Assembly (NCBI GenBank): GCA_021927905.1
Contig: BLLK01000051.1
Location: 1,550,001 to 1,614,000 of the forward strand
Reading direction: 5' to 3'
DNA length: 64,000 nt
Origin: Chaetoceros tenuissimus
Taxonomy: Eukaryota > Bacillariophyta > Thalassiosirophyceae > Chaetocerotales > Chaetocerotaceae
Positions within the stretch are counted from its first letter, which is position 1; each line of letters starts with the position of its first letter. A program made the translations under genes and the position numbers. Shown in pieces: positions 6,309 through 64,000 of the stretch. The notes under the pieces are model-generated. The model was not told the DNA's origin, made no database searches, and saw nothing but the letters and a program-made list of their open reading frames with translations.

Positions 6309-7620
6309 TTAAAAGGCTCCTGCCAAGTCAAGGCCTCCACCATTGTCAGTTTCTTGTTCAAAGAAATTTGCATTGATGTAAATCGAAGATCCAGCAAGTA
6401 ATGCCTTTTGCTCTACAGTCGCATCTTCTGGAAAGGTTACATCATAAGCTTCTGCATCTGTGAACAATTCAGTTCTCAAACTTTTTGGGACTTTGAGAAT
6501 CTTTCCAGCATTAGGAGCACCATTGTCAGTATCCTGTTGAGATGCAGGGAAGACGTGGAAAGGAACCTTGCAGCAAACTGCACCACAGTTTTTCCCTACG
6601 TAGAAGTAAAAGAAATGTTGAGAAAAAAGAACCTGATATCATCTTTCTACAAAGTAGTTTTACATACCTTCTGCACAACAATTTACACAAATTCCGCTTT
6701 TGAAAGTTGAGAAAAATGATCATCAGCAAGAAAATAGAGAACCAAATAGTTCATGAGAAGAGAAAAAACTTACCCACAGCAGGTAGGAGAATGAACTTTG
6801 TAAATATCTTCACCATTCGCTCCCTTGATGACCATACGAGGAACGCATACATAACACTGCTCCTCGATAGATCCAAGTGCTCTGCCATTTGCACTCATTG
6901 ACATGGTGCTGTAGCAACAGCACTTGCAAGCACCAGCTGGACAACCGAATGGACGATGCATAGACATGATGACATCACCACTATCAAGTTCCTTCACATC
7001 CATGGAGAATTCATGACATCCGCCAAGACAGATACGGCAGAGACAATCCGACTCTTCAAGAGAACTAGCGAACTGTACATTGTTATCATCAGTTTTGTCA
7101 AACCACTTGAATTCATCTAGAGCTTCGCAACCAATGAGTTCCTGCAACCATCCACGTCTCTATGACAAAGTGAAATAGGAGAAAATTGTAAGCATGAAAG
7201 ATCACAAAGGTTGGTCGCATAAGAAAAGGTTTGAATTTCTAGACAAAAAGCTATGAATAGAGTCTACTTACTGTTTGGCGAATAGTAAGTTCTTTCTTGT
7301 CGGCAAAAGCTGCCTCACTGTCAAAAAGAAAAAAGGAGTGAAATGTAGTTTCTCAAGGTATTTCACAATACAATTTATGCAAGATTTTCTTGTATAAAAC
7401 TAGCTGAAAGAGGACTAGTAAAGTGTAGAAACAGTAACCCGCAAATCGTACTTCATGATAACACGAGTACTGCCTCTACCACAAGCAATCCTCAAGAATC
7501 AGCAGCTAGTTGTTGGGCCTCCTGCCAACAAAGTGATACTACTAGTGAAAACTGGCTGCTGATTCCAAGCAATTTCTAAACGATGACTTACAGGCGGTCA
7601 CTCATAACATTAGCGTTCAT
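6309..7620 (-). CDS. Phospholipid scramblase family protein, five exons
   Basis: Reconstructed by eye from five exons: 7592-7620, 7272-7317, 6774-7159, 6668-6696 and 6309-6595. All junctions are GT-AG and keep the frame. The protein starts M-N-A-N-V-M-S-D-R-L. Scramblase hallmarks follow: a Cys-rich core with M-H-R-P-F-G-C and C-K-C-C-C-Y, then V-K-G-A-N-G-E-D-I-Y-K-V-H-S-P, matching the conserved strands of the scramblase/LURP-like (Tubby-like) fold. The C-terminal half continues the strand pattern with paired cysteines. Family members bind Ca2+ or lipid and are linked to loss of membrane lipid asymmetry, though the true activity is debated. No C-terminal membrane helix is evident. The gene at 9025-9976 is its paralog. 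Confidence 0.75.
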
Positions 7621-7885
7621 GATTGTTTATATAATTCAAAGTAGTGAAAAGAATGAATCTCTCAATGAAAGATACTTTCTGCTACAGTGGAAAGAAGGTA
7701 TCTTTGTGTTGAAGCAGAAATTCTGAGAATTTTCTAGCTCGCTCGCTTCGGCACTTCCGTATTTGTCGTACTTGATCGTAGAGAAGCCGATTGACGAAAG
7801 AGATAGAAAGAGGAAGGAGAAAGGGAACCAACTACAATAATAAATGATGTTTTCCAAACTTACAATAGAGTATCTTTGTTCTTAA

Positions 7886-59117: not shown

Positions 59118-59767
59118 TTATTTGGTCAGTCTGACTGGACCTCGATGTAATTTCAAACTTCTGCTTGTCGTTGGAAACATAGTTTCATTATTATCATAAT
59201 ACTAAATATGGTAATTAAAGTCCATGTTTGTGGTGTTGCAATTCCAATTAGCTTTATAGAAAAAACACATTGTTTCATTTTTGCAAAAAGGAAAAGTCTT
59301 GATGTTATTTCACTCTGGCTCAAAGGAACAAGTCTTTCTTTAAAAATATGTATATTTGCATTCATAGTTTATATTTTTACCAATAGTCATTTGATATCCA
59401 GTAAATGTTTATCGCTTACTTTTGAACCGTAAAATGAAAATCTGTTTCATTGTAGCGTGCTTATGCATTGAACATCCAAATAAAATAAAATAAAGAAACG
59501 TTGAGAGACTATCTTGAGTAATGAAACTCTAACTTGTAGCACAGATTTAAGATGTTCAGACTCAGAAATACAATGACATTGACGTCATTGACATCAGATA
59601 GGCAGAGCAGTTCTTATGCTCTCGCGCAATTTCTCAAACTCCGTCGTGCTTCAATGATCATGCAGACCAATAAATGAAAACAGAACAGAATATCCATAGA
59701 GGAATGAAGAAAAGATTCTTTGTATTCATTTCCATCATATCTTTTCAAATAATAGTCTTTGTTAATC
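59118..59767. other. Intergenic region
   Basis: About 650 bp with the 3' end of the calycin-like gene and the promoter of the oxidase gene. TGACATTGACGTCATTGACATC at about 59575-59596 contains the CRE/bZIP core TGACGTCA, a candidate binding site upstream of the oxidase (similar ATTGACGTCAATC at about 54537). Confidence 0.4.
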
Positions 59768-61428
59768 ATGAAGCTTTCCGGAAATCTTTTTTTCCTCATC
59801 AGCTGTTGCTTCTCAGGTGCTGTTGCCTTTTCAACAAATAAGGCTCGCATACTTAGTACTACTAGTCTCTCTTCAAGCACAAAAATCTTTAGTGCTGTTC
59901 CTGCTTCTCGTAACGATGAAGATATTTCCAAACAGACTCTTGCAAGAGATGCACTCCTCAAACTCATGGAAAAGCAAACACGAGACCTCGAAACGACAAA
60001 GGCTCTCCTCGACAACCTAGAAGAACTCAAACAGTCCGATAAAGAATCTATTCAAAATATAAACACGCCTGCATCTACCCTTGTCAAATCTATCTATTCG
60101 GGAACAGATTACGGATACATTAGTAGAAGTGAAGGATGTCGTTTTGAAACATTGGACGATTTGACAGATGAACTTTTTGAAAATTATGGACCACCGCAAA
60201 ATATATTGAAACTAGGTATTCAACAATTTAAACGAAATGTGGATGCAATCAAAGGAGAGTATAAAGAAGAAAAAAATTTGAATTTGACAAGGAAACAAAA
60301 GAAATTACAAGATCAGCTTGAAGGCTTGACTCTATCTTCTTCTGCCATTTGGGAACGAGAAAGGTCAAGAGGAGAAATTGTCGCTCCGCTCATCATCAAA
60401 GTGCCATATTATGTTTTATGTTACTTTTTAGATGTCGTGTTTGAAGGAAGAAATGTATTTTCTAGATTCTTTTTATTGGAAACTGTAGCGAGAATGCCTT
60501 ACTTCTCATACATTACAATGTTGCATCTATACGAGACGCTAGGATTTTGGAGAAGATCTGCAGAACAAAAGCGAGTACATTTTGCAGAAGAATGGAATGA
60601 ATTTCATCATTTACTAATTATGGAATCACTTGGTGGTGATCAACCTTGGTGGGTGAGGTTTCTAGCACAGCATAGTGCCATTGTATACTTTTTAGTGTTG
60701 ACGCATCTTTTTGCAATCTCGCCTTCGTTGAGTTACAAGTTTAGTGAAATGTTAGAGACTCATGCAGTAGATACCTATGGACAGTTTATTGATGAAAATG
60801 AGGAGCAACTGAAGAAGTTACCACCGCCATTGGTAGCTCTAGAGTATTATTCATTAGGAATTGCAGACCCATTGTTTGGTGAATATCAAACAAGTGCACA
60901 GGCAAAGAATGAAGAAATTAGGAAACCAGGGAAAGATATGCAGAATTTGTACGATGTTTTCTGTGCGATTCGAGCAGATGAAGGTGATCACGTCGGTAAG
61001 AGGTTTACGTTACATTGGGATTTTCTTCAATGAGAGTTTTTCAAAGTACTCATTTTTCGTTCTTTATTATAGGTACAATGAAAGCATGTCTTGATCCTTC
61101 CGTTCCAGTCCTCACACCCGCATTGGAGGCTAGAGTGCTGATAGGTCTTGGCTTAGCAGCAAGTGCTGCATTTATTTTGTCATCGGGTGGTTCAGTCGAA
61201 GATGTAGTAGGAACCGAAACTGTTGAGGGTATAGATGGTACAATTCTAGAAGGTATAGTAGGCGCTGGTGCAGCACTTCTAGGTGGAATGAGAGAAGCAA
61301 TGTCCGATGGTGGGGCAGAAGAAGTTGTGGAAGAAGCCGGTGTTGCGGGTTTTGAAATATCAATTTTTTTCACTTTTCTTCGCCAAGCATTTACTGCATT
61401 TCTAGAGGCACTAGGTATTTTCCTGTAG
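59768..61428 (+). CDS. PTOX: Plastid terminal oxidase (PTOX/alternative oxidase family), two exons
   Basis: Exon 1 59768-60995 and exon 2 61073-61428 join by a 77-bp GTAAGA-TATAG intron, giving 527 residues. Without splicing the frame ends at 61033 and loses the conserved end. The presequence ([21 protein letters not shown]) is the diatom plastid type. The diiron ligands are visible: L-E-T-V-A-R at about 237, E-E-W-N-E-F-H-H at 274, L-E-T-H-A-V-D-T-Y near 329, and R-A-D-E-G-D-H at 402 continuing across the junction as V-G-T-M-K-A-C. It should oxidise plastoquinol with O2 in thylakoids, as IMMUTANS does. The C-terminal 100 residues or so beyond are an unusual Gly/Glu/hydrophobic extension. Confidence 0.85.
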
Positions 61429-61546: not shown

Positions 61547-61999
61547 TCATTCTTGTTTGGGCACAAGGCTAACTTTGGTGGTGGCAATATCAGATGCATT
61601 GCATAATGGACAAGTATTTCGCCAAAGGACCCAGCTCTTTAGGCATTCAACATGAAATTCATGTCCGCACTCCAAATCTCCTATCCTATCGCCATTGACG
61701 ATATCAATCATACAAATCGAGCATGTAGTCTGGTGAGTATCATAATCAGTACAAGATTCTTTGGAATTGATTTCTTCTCTTGCATCATCTTCAAATTCTT
61801 CTTGTTCCTCTTGTTCAACAAATGATTTCGTCTTGAGATGCAATGATAGCTTCTGCATTCTACCATCAGGACTTTCCCTTGATCTTGTCATCATTTCTCG
61901 AAGTTCGCGTCTCATAGCCCTTTCTCTCGCCAATTCCTTTTCCACCACCCTACGATTGATGCATGGAAGACATTTGCCCAAGACATAGGTCCTTGCCAT
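61547..61999 (-). CDS. RING-H2 E3 ubiquitin ligase
   Basis: 150 residues. A basic helix (residues 15-40) and acidic stretch (62-80) precede a RING-H2 finger at 93-133: Cys93, Cys96, Cys111, His113, His116, Cys119, Cys130 and Cys133, with W123 and the P131 after Cys130 as in E2-binding RINGs. No membrane helix is seen, unlike ATL-type ligases. Probable soluble E3 or adaptor of one. Convergent with the oxidase gene. Confidence 0.85.
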   Translation of the reverse strand: MARTYVLGKCLPCINRRVVEKELARERAMRRELREMMTRSRESPDGRMQKLSLHLKTKSFVEQEEQEEFEDDAREEINSKESCTDYDTHQTTCSICMIDIVNGDRIGDLECGHEFHVECLKSWVLWRNTCPLCNASDIATTKVSLVPKQE

Positions 62000-62239
62000 G
62001 AATCCGAACCTCGTTGTTAAGAAAGCAACGACTTCCTTAGATTGTAAATAGGGAGATTATATAATGAAAGAGAAGGGAAGGAGAGAGGGAGTAACCAATG
62101 AAATTGTCACGTTTCCACCATTTTTTCGATGGAAAAATTCCAAAAAATGCTTGACATGTTAATGACTCAAAAGAGGTATGAATGCTTCACATATGATGCA
62201 ATTCTTCAAAGAGTAATCATAATTAATTAAATACAAACT
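62000..62239. other. 5' flank of the Crypton gene
   Basis: AT-rich 240 bp. Any left end of the mobile element should lie here. Crypton-type elements usually have no terminal inverted repeat, and I see none. Confidence 0.3.
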
Positions 62240-64000
62240 ATGGCAGACCAAATTCTACGCTTAGAAGCTACAAGAGGTGCTACTAACAGAGCTCAACTTG
62301 CTAGATCTCATCAACAGCAGGCAAGAGAGCTTGCTATAGCAATTGCACCACTTGTGCAAACAAATGATTGCTATGCTGGACTTGAAAAGAAGTTTAAAAA
62401 ATATGTTGATCAGCACAGAAACAACTTGCCTTTCCAGTTAGCAGCAAATAAGTATGTCAACAAATTTAGCGTTGAGTCATACTATCTTTCGGAGGAAAAG
62501 AAACGCATCGTGAAATTTGAAACGATGAAAAATACTTGCAAGGCCGTTGACCACCTTTCGGACAGAGAAGGCGGCCCATTATCTCCACAATGTAATATAA
62601 GGGAACATGCTGACACCAAACTTGTTGTAAATCAAGTTTTGGACTATGTGAAGGTCCAGTATAAACAAAAATTGGAAAATAGAGAAGCACAAAATGATCC
62701 ACATGAAAAGAATCCCTTCAATATCATATCTCAAGAAAATATTTCTAAAGTGATGTTCAATAAATTGAGAACTGGTCAGTCTTGGGAGGATGTGGTTGTT
62801 TGCTGGTCCATCACCACAACAACTCTACTTAGATTTGACCAAGCTCAAGTGGTCACGCTGGACAAACTTTTTTTGAGCACAGACTTGCCGCCATGGGGCA
62901 TTGAAACACCTTTCGACGGGGAAGAGTGGAATGAAATTACAAATAATAGACAATCAACAGGAGATGAACGGATGCTGGCCATCCTTTGTCCTCCATTGGA
63001 TCAGCGGAAAAAAAATAAAGAAAATGATAGCTTAAAAACTGAAGGTGTTGGAGCCTTTCGTCACAAGCGCTTTGAACGTTGTCCTCATGGAATTCTAGCA
63101 TTTTCGCTTCTACAAAAATTTCACAATTTAAGGCAGAGAATATCATTTAAAAAAAAGGAGCACACACCACAACACAAAATTCACTGGAGAGATGTGAAGC
63201 TATTCAATATATCCTACAACACAGCTTGGGATCAGTATAACAAGATGATGGAAGATGCTGGTGTACAAAAGTGGTTAAAAACTACCCACATGAGAAAAGC
63301 TGGTAGTAACTTATGCACAGCTCAAGGAATGACGCCGAGCGAGGTAAGAACACTTACAAAACACTCCACGAAACAAGACAATTTTGACAAAAGCTACGGT
63401 TGCGAGGTTTCAATACCTGTGGCTTCCACTATTGCTGGCTTTCGTCCACGTCGTGATGAATATTTTGTTCCACGAACATCAATTTCTGGACCTAGTGAGC
63501 CTTTGTCTATGAATCAATGTACTGTCCTTCTATTTGATGATTATTTGGAATGGGTGGCAGAACAATCTGGTCCAGAAGGAGATAAGAGTTCTGCAGCAAG
63601 TCACTTTTTGACACAGCTCATTCCGTACTTTACACAAGTGGCAATCCAAGATGGGATATATTGGATACACAATTTTCCAAATAATCCGGTGGTTGAATTA
63701 TTTCTCTCTAAACTACAACGTACTTGGCCAGATGGAGGTTACTGTGCTTGGGCACAAACACAGAGAAAAACTTGTAAAGAAAAAATCAAAAATTTTCGTG
63801 AGCTCCATGACCTGAAAGGAAACGTCCATGACGTGAGAGGAAACGTTTCACAAATTCTACAAATATGCCAGCAGCAAGCTGGTTTGTTGCAGCAGCAAGC
63901 CGGCATGTTGCAGCAGTTGCAAAATCGTGTAGCTGCTCTACAACAACAACCACAGGAAGGGGGGGAGAGAGTAGTTGAAGGAAACGAACAGCAGCAACAA
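62240..64000 (+). CDS. Crypton-type tyrosine recombinase (runs off window end)
   Basis: From ATG 62240 the frame stays open for 587 codons to the last base of the window. The architecture matches the NDC10-II/Crypton recombinase domain: F-R-H-K-R-F-E-R-C-P-H-G-I-L-A-F at residues 273-288 (box containing the first catalytic Arg), then T-H-M-R-K-A-G at about 349-355 with His350 and Arg352, the nucleophile-position S-Y-G at Tyr386, and I-A-G-F-R-P-R-R-D-E-Y-F-V-P-R, the A-G-F signature downstream of it. The N-terminal part (about 1-250) would be the arm-binding domain. The C-terminus is helical then Gln-rich. Cryptons use this enzyme to move as circles without duplicating the target. An autonomous element is likely, though its right end is outside the window. 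Confidence 0.75.
   Translation, partial: MADQILRLEATRGATNRAQLARSHQQQARELAIAIAPLVQTNDCYAGLEKKFKKYVDQHRNNLPFQLAANKYVNKFSVESYYLSEEKKRIVKFETMKNTCKAVDHLSDREGGPLSPQCNIREHADTKLVVNQVLDYVKVQYKQKLENREAQNDPHEKNPFNIISQENISKVMFNKLRTGQSWEDVVVCWSITTTTLLRFDQAQVVTLDKLFLSTDLPPWGIETPFDGEEWNEITNNRQSTGDERMLAILCPPLDQRKKNKENDSLKTEGVGAFRHKRFERCPHGILAFSLLQKFHNLRQRISFKKKEHTPQHKIHWRDVKLFNISYNTAWDQYNKMMEDAGVQKWLKTTHMRKAGSNLCTAQGMTPSEVRTLTKHSTKQDNFDKSYGCEVSIPVASTIAGFRPRRDEYFVPRTSISGPSEPLSMNQCTVLLFDDYLEWVAEQSGPEGDKSSAASHFLTQLIPYFTQVAIQDGIYWIHNFPNNPVVELFLSKLQRTWPDGGYCAWAQTQRKTCKEKIKNFRELHDLKGNVHDVRGNVSQILQICQQQAGLLQQQAGMLQQLQNRVAALQQQPQEGGERVVEGNEQQQQ

Follow-up and report, generated by a model that had tools for sequence, protein, structure and literature searches.

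The closest described systems are the CryptonS transposons of oomycetes and Phaeodactylum tricornutum (Kojima and Jurka 2011, PMC3212892) and the RusA resolvases of phages and bacteria (PF05866, PHROG 140). In the sections of that paper that deal with them, CryptonS transposons carry a Crypton-type recombinase and 5-bp-class terminal direct repeats, which read TATGG in the majority, share a C-terminal part between families and, in some cases, have an extra gene for a C48 (Ulp1-like) peptidase. The same sections propose that Cryptons are excised as a circle that re-integrates, a mode put forward by analogy and not demonstrated. The second Arg of the catalytic tetrad is nearly invariant in tyrosine recombinases, a small number of which carry Lys, according to the part of PMC4381057 that treats this residue.

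Here, we describe a genuine, intact and recently active CryptonS-like element at the edge of a 64,000-nucleotide stretch (the window; C38:1550001-1614000) of the diatom Chaetoceros tenuissimus. Its recombinase type and its ends are ordinary, and what is unusual is a RusA-type partner gene, a Lys at the second catalytic Arg and the existence of RusA-bearing relatives; the RusA gene, on the other strand and beyond the window, is its most unusual feature. Set beside CryptonS by published description, the element has the same kind of host (a stramenopile), a recombinase of the Crypton type, terminal direct repeats of the 5-bp class, no GCR1_C domain that could be found, a C-terminal part common to families and an extra gene. 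It differs in the core of its ends (AANCA in the family described here, family A, and in the related family N, AACC in family B) and in its extra gene, which is of the RusA type instead of a peptidase, and may differ in its Lys. As TATGG ends are not a required feature, their absence lowers the likelihood of membership without excluding it, and we thus write ‘CryptonS-like’. With the RusA resolvases of phages and bacteria the partner gene shares a profile score over the cut-off and the D-x-D-N-L-x-K and D-D motifs, but here it lies inside a eukaryotic tyrosine-recombinase transposon, and families B and N retain an acid-less derivative. Our literature search, which covered titles and parts of texts, returned no description of a Crypton with a resolvase and, by title, nothing relevant on RusA in diatoms, although an earlier one may stand in supplements or in Repbase; the main text of PMC3212892 contains ‘RusA’ and ‘resolvase’ zero times.

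The original prediction started from a forward frame of 587 codons without stops (62240-64000), which is present as claimed. Twenty mononucleotide shuffles of the entire 64-kb window have longest open frames of 106-191 codons, which excludes a chance origin of this frame. It continues past the window edge for 198 codons including the stop, giving a protein of 784 aa that ends at 64594, and not a few codons past the edge as part of an unrelated gene. A profile search of the translation, suggested at the time, identifies it as a Crypton-type recombinase: the in-window part matches the Pfam family NDC10_II (E = 1.9e-9, 37.4 bits; curated cut-off 26.3), as do residues 1-571 (E = 1.7e-9; 37.4-37.6 bits across both queries). 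With the full-length query (783 aa), NDC10_II is absent at E ≤ 10, and the matches of all 15 Pfam families that are listed fall inside residues 531-726, in or close to a Gln-rich part; we take this absence to be a putative composition-filter effect of HMMER. Gln runs occupy residues 584-612, 619-623 and 636-642. The Gln-rich stretch noted earlier is a linker and not a C-terminal extension, followed as it is by a further C-terminal part, up to 64594, that resembles that of family B (E = 8e-5). In the same four-sequence set, B and C match at E = 7e-11 and A and C at E = 0.042, a similarity measured within this genome's own families only. The C-terminal parts of families A, B and C have no match to GCR1_C in Pfam at E ≤ 10.

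All genome searches covered 41 Mb in 68 contigs and scored the best candidates only, so that copy and match counts are lower bounds; coordinates above 64000 extend the window numbering along contig C38 (position n of locus L005 is window position 61000+n). The silicon-transporter family has at least 11 matches, every one of them over its cut-off (best E = 2.3e-211), which marks the genome as that of a diatom. The NDC10_II model has at least four matches over the cut-off in the whole genome, all of them copies of the family A element among the matches listed, and at least three weak matches that are family B copies. Among viral sequences in IMG/VR, 19 stretches matched the recombinase pattern and none was confirmed as a relative. 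A single-sequence search of the PDB gave no relatives, and a profile search gave one match, to an H-NS-type protein (E = 0.27). A single-sequence AlphaFold model of residues 36-515 is too weak for use (pLDDT 34.0, pTM 0.22).

The catalytic motifs named in the original prediction are all in place, namely RHKRFERCPHG from Arg274, T-T-H-M-R-K-A-G with His350, Tyr386 and AGFRPR from residue 399, and one of them changes its reading. The His block had been taken for an H-x-R motif one residue shorter than usual. It reads T-H-M-R-K-A-G in family A, T-H-F-K-K-A-G in family B and T-H-C-K-K-A-G in family C (with an intron removed by eye). Because the residue at His+3 is Lys in all three families, while the position of Arg352 holds R, K and K and is not conserved, the motif is better read as H-x-x-K. 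Of the tetrad R-H-x-x-R-Y, His350 and Tyr386 are present and the second Arg is replaced by Lys353. Candidates for the first Arg are Arg198 (R, R and H in A, B and C), which sits in what we presume to be a box-I-like block, and Arg274 (R in all three), the earlier choice, which lies only 76 residues before His350. With the H-x-x-K substitution and two candidates for the first Arg, the activity of the recombinase is putative.

A protein search of the genome yielded at least four full-length matches with 100% identity, two on contig C38 and the others on C48 and C54. All four copies found are identical base for base over 3,766 bp, and the flanks outside their ends are unrelated between the three sites. 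Zero differences among four copies point to very recent spread or homogenisation. The recent activity suggested by the original prediction and the further genomic copies that it meant to look for are both found. The right end, to be sought beyond 64000, lies at 65793, so that about 1.8 kb of the first copy is beyond the window edge, and a second full copy follows directly, joined head to tail to the first (62028-65793, then 65794-69559).

The element starts at 62028, after a direct repeat at 62023-62027 and upstream of the ATG at 62240 (Table 1). Left ends have the form X-AARCA-ACGACTTCC and right ends CGGGAG-AAACA-Y, with AARCA direct repeats at both ends in four out of four copies. No terminal inverted repeat stands out: when one 40-bp end is compared with the other in reverse complement, their longest common word has 6 bp, and 31% of 1,000 random pairs match this length. 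Direct repeats without terminal inverted repeats are expected for a tyrosine recombinase that integrates a circle. At joined ends, 6-bp inverted arms centred on the core (A, N and B) were also considered and discarded, as by our estimate chance alone produces arms of roughly this length in 120 bp. The stretch 62028-62239 is present at no fewer than seven places in the genome, four times at 100% and three times at 84% identity. Of the five sites of families A and N for which both ends were read (C38, C48 and C54 for A; C54 and C48 for N), two hold doublets; these, like the identity of the copies, rest on one assembly. On C38, a RING-type frame of the opposite strand has its first ATG (61997-61999) 28 bp away from the insertion; on C48 and C54, the insertion lies between the long open reading frames of the region.

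Table 1. Coordinates of the features of the family A element in window numbering.
Feature	Position	Strand	Basis
Left direct repeat (core) AAGCA	62023-62027	+	Junctions of four copies compared
Transposon copy 1, in-window part	62028-64000 (whole body 62028-65793, 3,766 bp with the right AAACA counted)	+	
Left end and 5' non-coding stretch	62028-62239	+	Present in recombinase-less relatives
Tyrosine recombinase gene, in-window part	62240-64000, continues to 64594	+	NDC10_II profile
His350-x-x-Lys353 codons	63287-63298	+	Residue numbering of translation
Tyr386 codon	63395-63397	+	Residue numbering of translation
Gln-rich linker, start	63989-64000	+	Gln runs, most of them beyond the window
RusA-type gene, 205 aa	64716-65333 (beyond the window)	-	Pfam PF05866, E = 1.3e-8
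Right direct repeat AAACA	65789-65793 (beyond the window)	+	Junctions of four copies compared

Two genes neighbour the element. The RING-type zinc-finger gene (61547-62056, reverse strand) has its likely start 28 bp from the element, and its promoter may be affected. The other is a gene of the alternative-oxidase type (59756-61033, forward strand; Pfam AOX, E = 1.1e-27).

Four related families accompany family A in the genome. Family B has at least three copies (L008, L009 and L010), 98.5-99.1% identical in their longest DNA matches, and its recombinase is 31% identical to that of family A over residues 328-505. Its ends read AACC in the two copies where they are readable, those of L010 being lost or different; L010, on the reverse strand, also contains an insertion of ~1.28 kb (~6487-7763). 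Family C, with at least one copy, has a GT-AG intron through the His motif. Family D is represented by at least three copies, of which L015 and L016 are of one kind and L017 of another, and has the recombinase motifs R236, K265, H339-C-x-R342, W366 and Y377; it has no integrase or NDC10 match in Pfam at E ≤ 1, and comparison of its profile with A, B and C is non-significant (probability 0.07%), a short aligned piece setting Lys353 opposite Arg342. Family N is ~1.78 kb long, lacks a recombinase and has ends 79-84% like those of family A. It was found as a doublet on C54, a single copy on C48 and a truncated copy on C13; the loci are L012 2497-6057, L013 2782-4556 and L014 2749-3812, with one head-to-tail doublet site among them.

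The RusA frame of family A is convergent with the recombinase, begins 121 bp past the recombinase stop and is present in all four copies. Its protein scores 35.9 bits against PF05866 (cut-off 22.8) and matches PHROG 140, a RusA-like Holliday junction resolvase, at E = 2.7e-10; there is no match in NCBIfam. A profile built from transposon and host-like RusA proteins retrieves E. coli RusA (1q8r) at E = 0.0026 with the D-x-D-N-L-x-K and D-D-x-Q motifs aligned, a match that is modest alone, with unrelated WalK sensor kinases next at E 0.016-0.028. In E. coli RusA, the catalytic acids are presumably D70, D72 and D91. The corresponding D-x-D ... D acids are invariant in families A, C and D and in a host-like gene, and lost in families B and N; D-x-D-N..K and D-D are invariant throughout the active-looking group.

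A RusA or RusA-derived frame occupies the same place in 11 of the 11 recombinase-bearing copies found (a minimum, with four in A, three in B, one in C and three in D), the recombinase of D, one of these four families, being identified by motif only. In families C and D, the gene is over the Pfam cut-off and in the same convergent place. The family B and N proteins have no RusA match in Pfam. The 203-aa frame at the RusA place in family B matches the RusA profile with a probability of 92.5% (E = 5e-7, single comparison) and lacks the catalytic acidic residues. The version in family N is 75-80% identical to that of family B, is intact in three of four copies and is accompanied by remnants of a family-A-like RusA.

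Searched against the genome, the family A RusA has at least 17 matches and the Pfam RusA model at least 11, all over the cut-off, whereas the family N protein has at least seven, all in family B or N elements among the matches listed. Outside the elements described here, RusA is represented by the host-like gene, by a piece beside a retrotransposon and by a 28.8-bit fragment with a stop (C38:408357). The host-like gene (L019 4116-5177, C48 ~176116-177177, reverse strand) is a 354-aa stop-to-stop frame (Pfam E = 5.8e-12), in single copy among the matches listed, with a long N-terminal extension whose first part is hydrophobic. It has the appearance of a host gene, with a product possibly targeted to an organelle, as judged by eye from the protein, and the transposon RusA could derive from it or have it as a counterpart. 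The retrotransposon-side piece (L018 3423-4081) is downstream of a polyprotein frame, and a short frame at L018 7918-8253 resembles by eye the end of another tyrosine recombinase.

Between L015 and L017, the RusA genes have a dS of 0.17 (dN/dS 0.22) and the recombinases a dS of 2.7 (dN/dS 0.21), from which we infer that the cassette was exchanged after the recombinases had diverged. The acid-less RusA of B and N has a dN/dS of 0.22 (dS 0.52), although this selection may date from a time when the gene sat in a recombinase-bearing element, and within family B, where changes are few, dN/dS is 0.47 and 0.29 for RusA and 0.14 and 0.65 for the recombinase. These values argue that RusA is kept as a protein, even without its acids. 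Evolution of the elements is modular, with RusA cassettes moving from one backbone to another and an acid-less form retained by selection.

We searched for RusA relatives in viral contigs (50 loci from 149 pattern-matching stretches) and in bacterial genome contigs (two from ten). A tree was built from 30 of these loci (29 of the 50 viral and one of the two bacterial), with two viral rows dropped for stop codons, so that the final 33 rows comprise 27 viral, one bacterial and five diatom sequences. The diatom rows do not form one group (two changes) and A and C are joined with support 95/85. Deep forks are weak and the branch of family A is long, so that the tree does not place the origin of the transposon RusA.

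That family A is a mobile Crypton-type element is, in our judgement, very likely, and the joint claim that it is such an element and moves by way of a circle is only slightly less so. The 784-aa recombinase would most likely excise the 3.77-kb element as a circle, whose AAACA junction would recombine with a genomic AANCA core. The outcome would be short direct repeats, or head-to-tail doublets where the target is the end of an existing element. At its third base, the core departs from the element's A in three of seven left ends (G, G and C) and in none of nine right ends, counts in which two of the seven and two of the nine are the same inner doublet junctions and which comprise three informative events only; it is as if strand exchange fell to the right of this base. 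RusA would then resolve or process the junction from the first strand exchange. For this last step, deduced from the enzyme family and the constant pairing, we see a fair amount to recommend it and slightly more reason for doubt.

In CTX phage integration and in integron cassettes, the junction from a first exchange is finished by host replication or host proteins. The diatom element would be alike if RusA finishes the reaction, with the difference that it would carry its own resolvase. We also consider a fuller and rather unlikely version, a two-enzyme system in which the Lys-type recombinase carries out a single strand exchange at an AANCA core of poor match, RusA from the same element then cuts the Holliday junction, and the acid-less RusA of family B and of the recombinase-less elements serves as a junction-binding partner or regulator. 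Family B speaks against a need for junction cutting in all families, as its RusA is without the acids and yet it has three near-identical copies. A junction resolvase on board a eukaryotic tyrosine-recombinase transposon would imply that half of the reaction can pass to a different enzyme. With their four identical copies, defined ends, doublets, shortened derivatives and partner resolvase, these elements offer a compact test system for Crypton integration.

RusA might instead have no part in strand exchange and be a passenger, or a replication or repair helper that cleaves branched DNA during circle or tandem amplification, and we rate the chances of this as nearly even. Such a role would fit with standard tyrosine recombinases resolving their junctions themselves, with the frequency of RusA-like genes in phages (the 50 relatives among 149 pattern matches, and PHROG 140), with the occurrence of head-to-tail doublets and with the loss of the catalytic acids in the family B derivative. 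The same convergent place in all 11 copies found, together with purifying selection, is more than a chance passenger would be expected to have, although a replication helper would look alike.

The remaining alternatives concern the element itself. With Lys for the second Arg, the family A recombinase could be inactive and the element moved in trans by another recombinase, as the H-x-x-K motif in place of H-x-x-R and the multiplication of family N, which has family-A-like ends and no recombinase gene, would allow. The same Lys is, however, common to A, B and C, of which A and B have open frames in several copies each; the dN/dS values of the family B recombinase (few changes) and the occurrence of Lys in a small number of other tyrosine recombinases (as that part of PMC4381057 has it) also speak against this reading. 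Moreover, the family A left end is found at at least seven places, all in A or N among the matches listed, so that no other recombinase with such ends was seen. We regard movement in trans as highly improbable. Domestication was already raised in the original prediction, and to a domesticated host gene whose copies are segmental or assembly duplicates we give almost no credence. In its favour, the frames are intact and identical, and domestication of a Crypton-type protein has a precedent in NDC10 (PMC3212892, in its account of NDC10). Against this, the four identical copies, spread over three sites, show the behaviour of a transposon: they have exactly the same ends within unrelated flanks, shorter recombinase-less relatives have these ends too, and the doublet junction is exactly end to end.

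On the same contig as the window, a family A right-end remnant is found at L021 2164-5338 (C38 ~250664-253838; right end at C38:250666), 99.4% identical over 156 bp. The remnant lacks its left part and is split by ~3 kb of inserted DNA.
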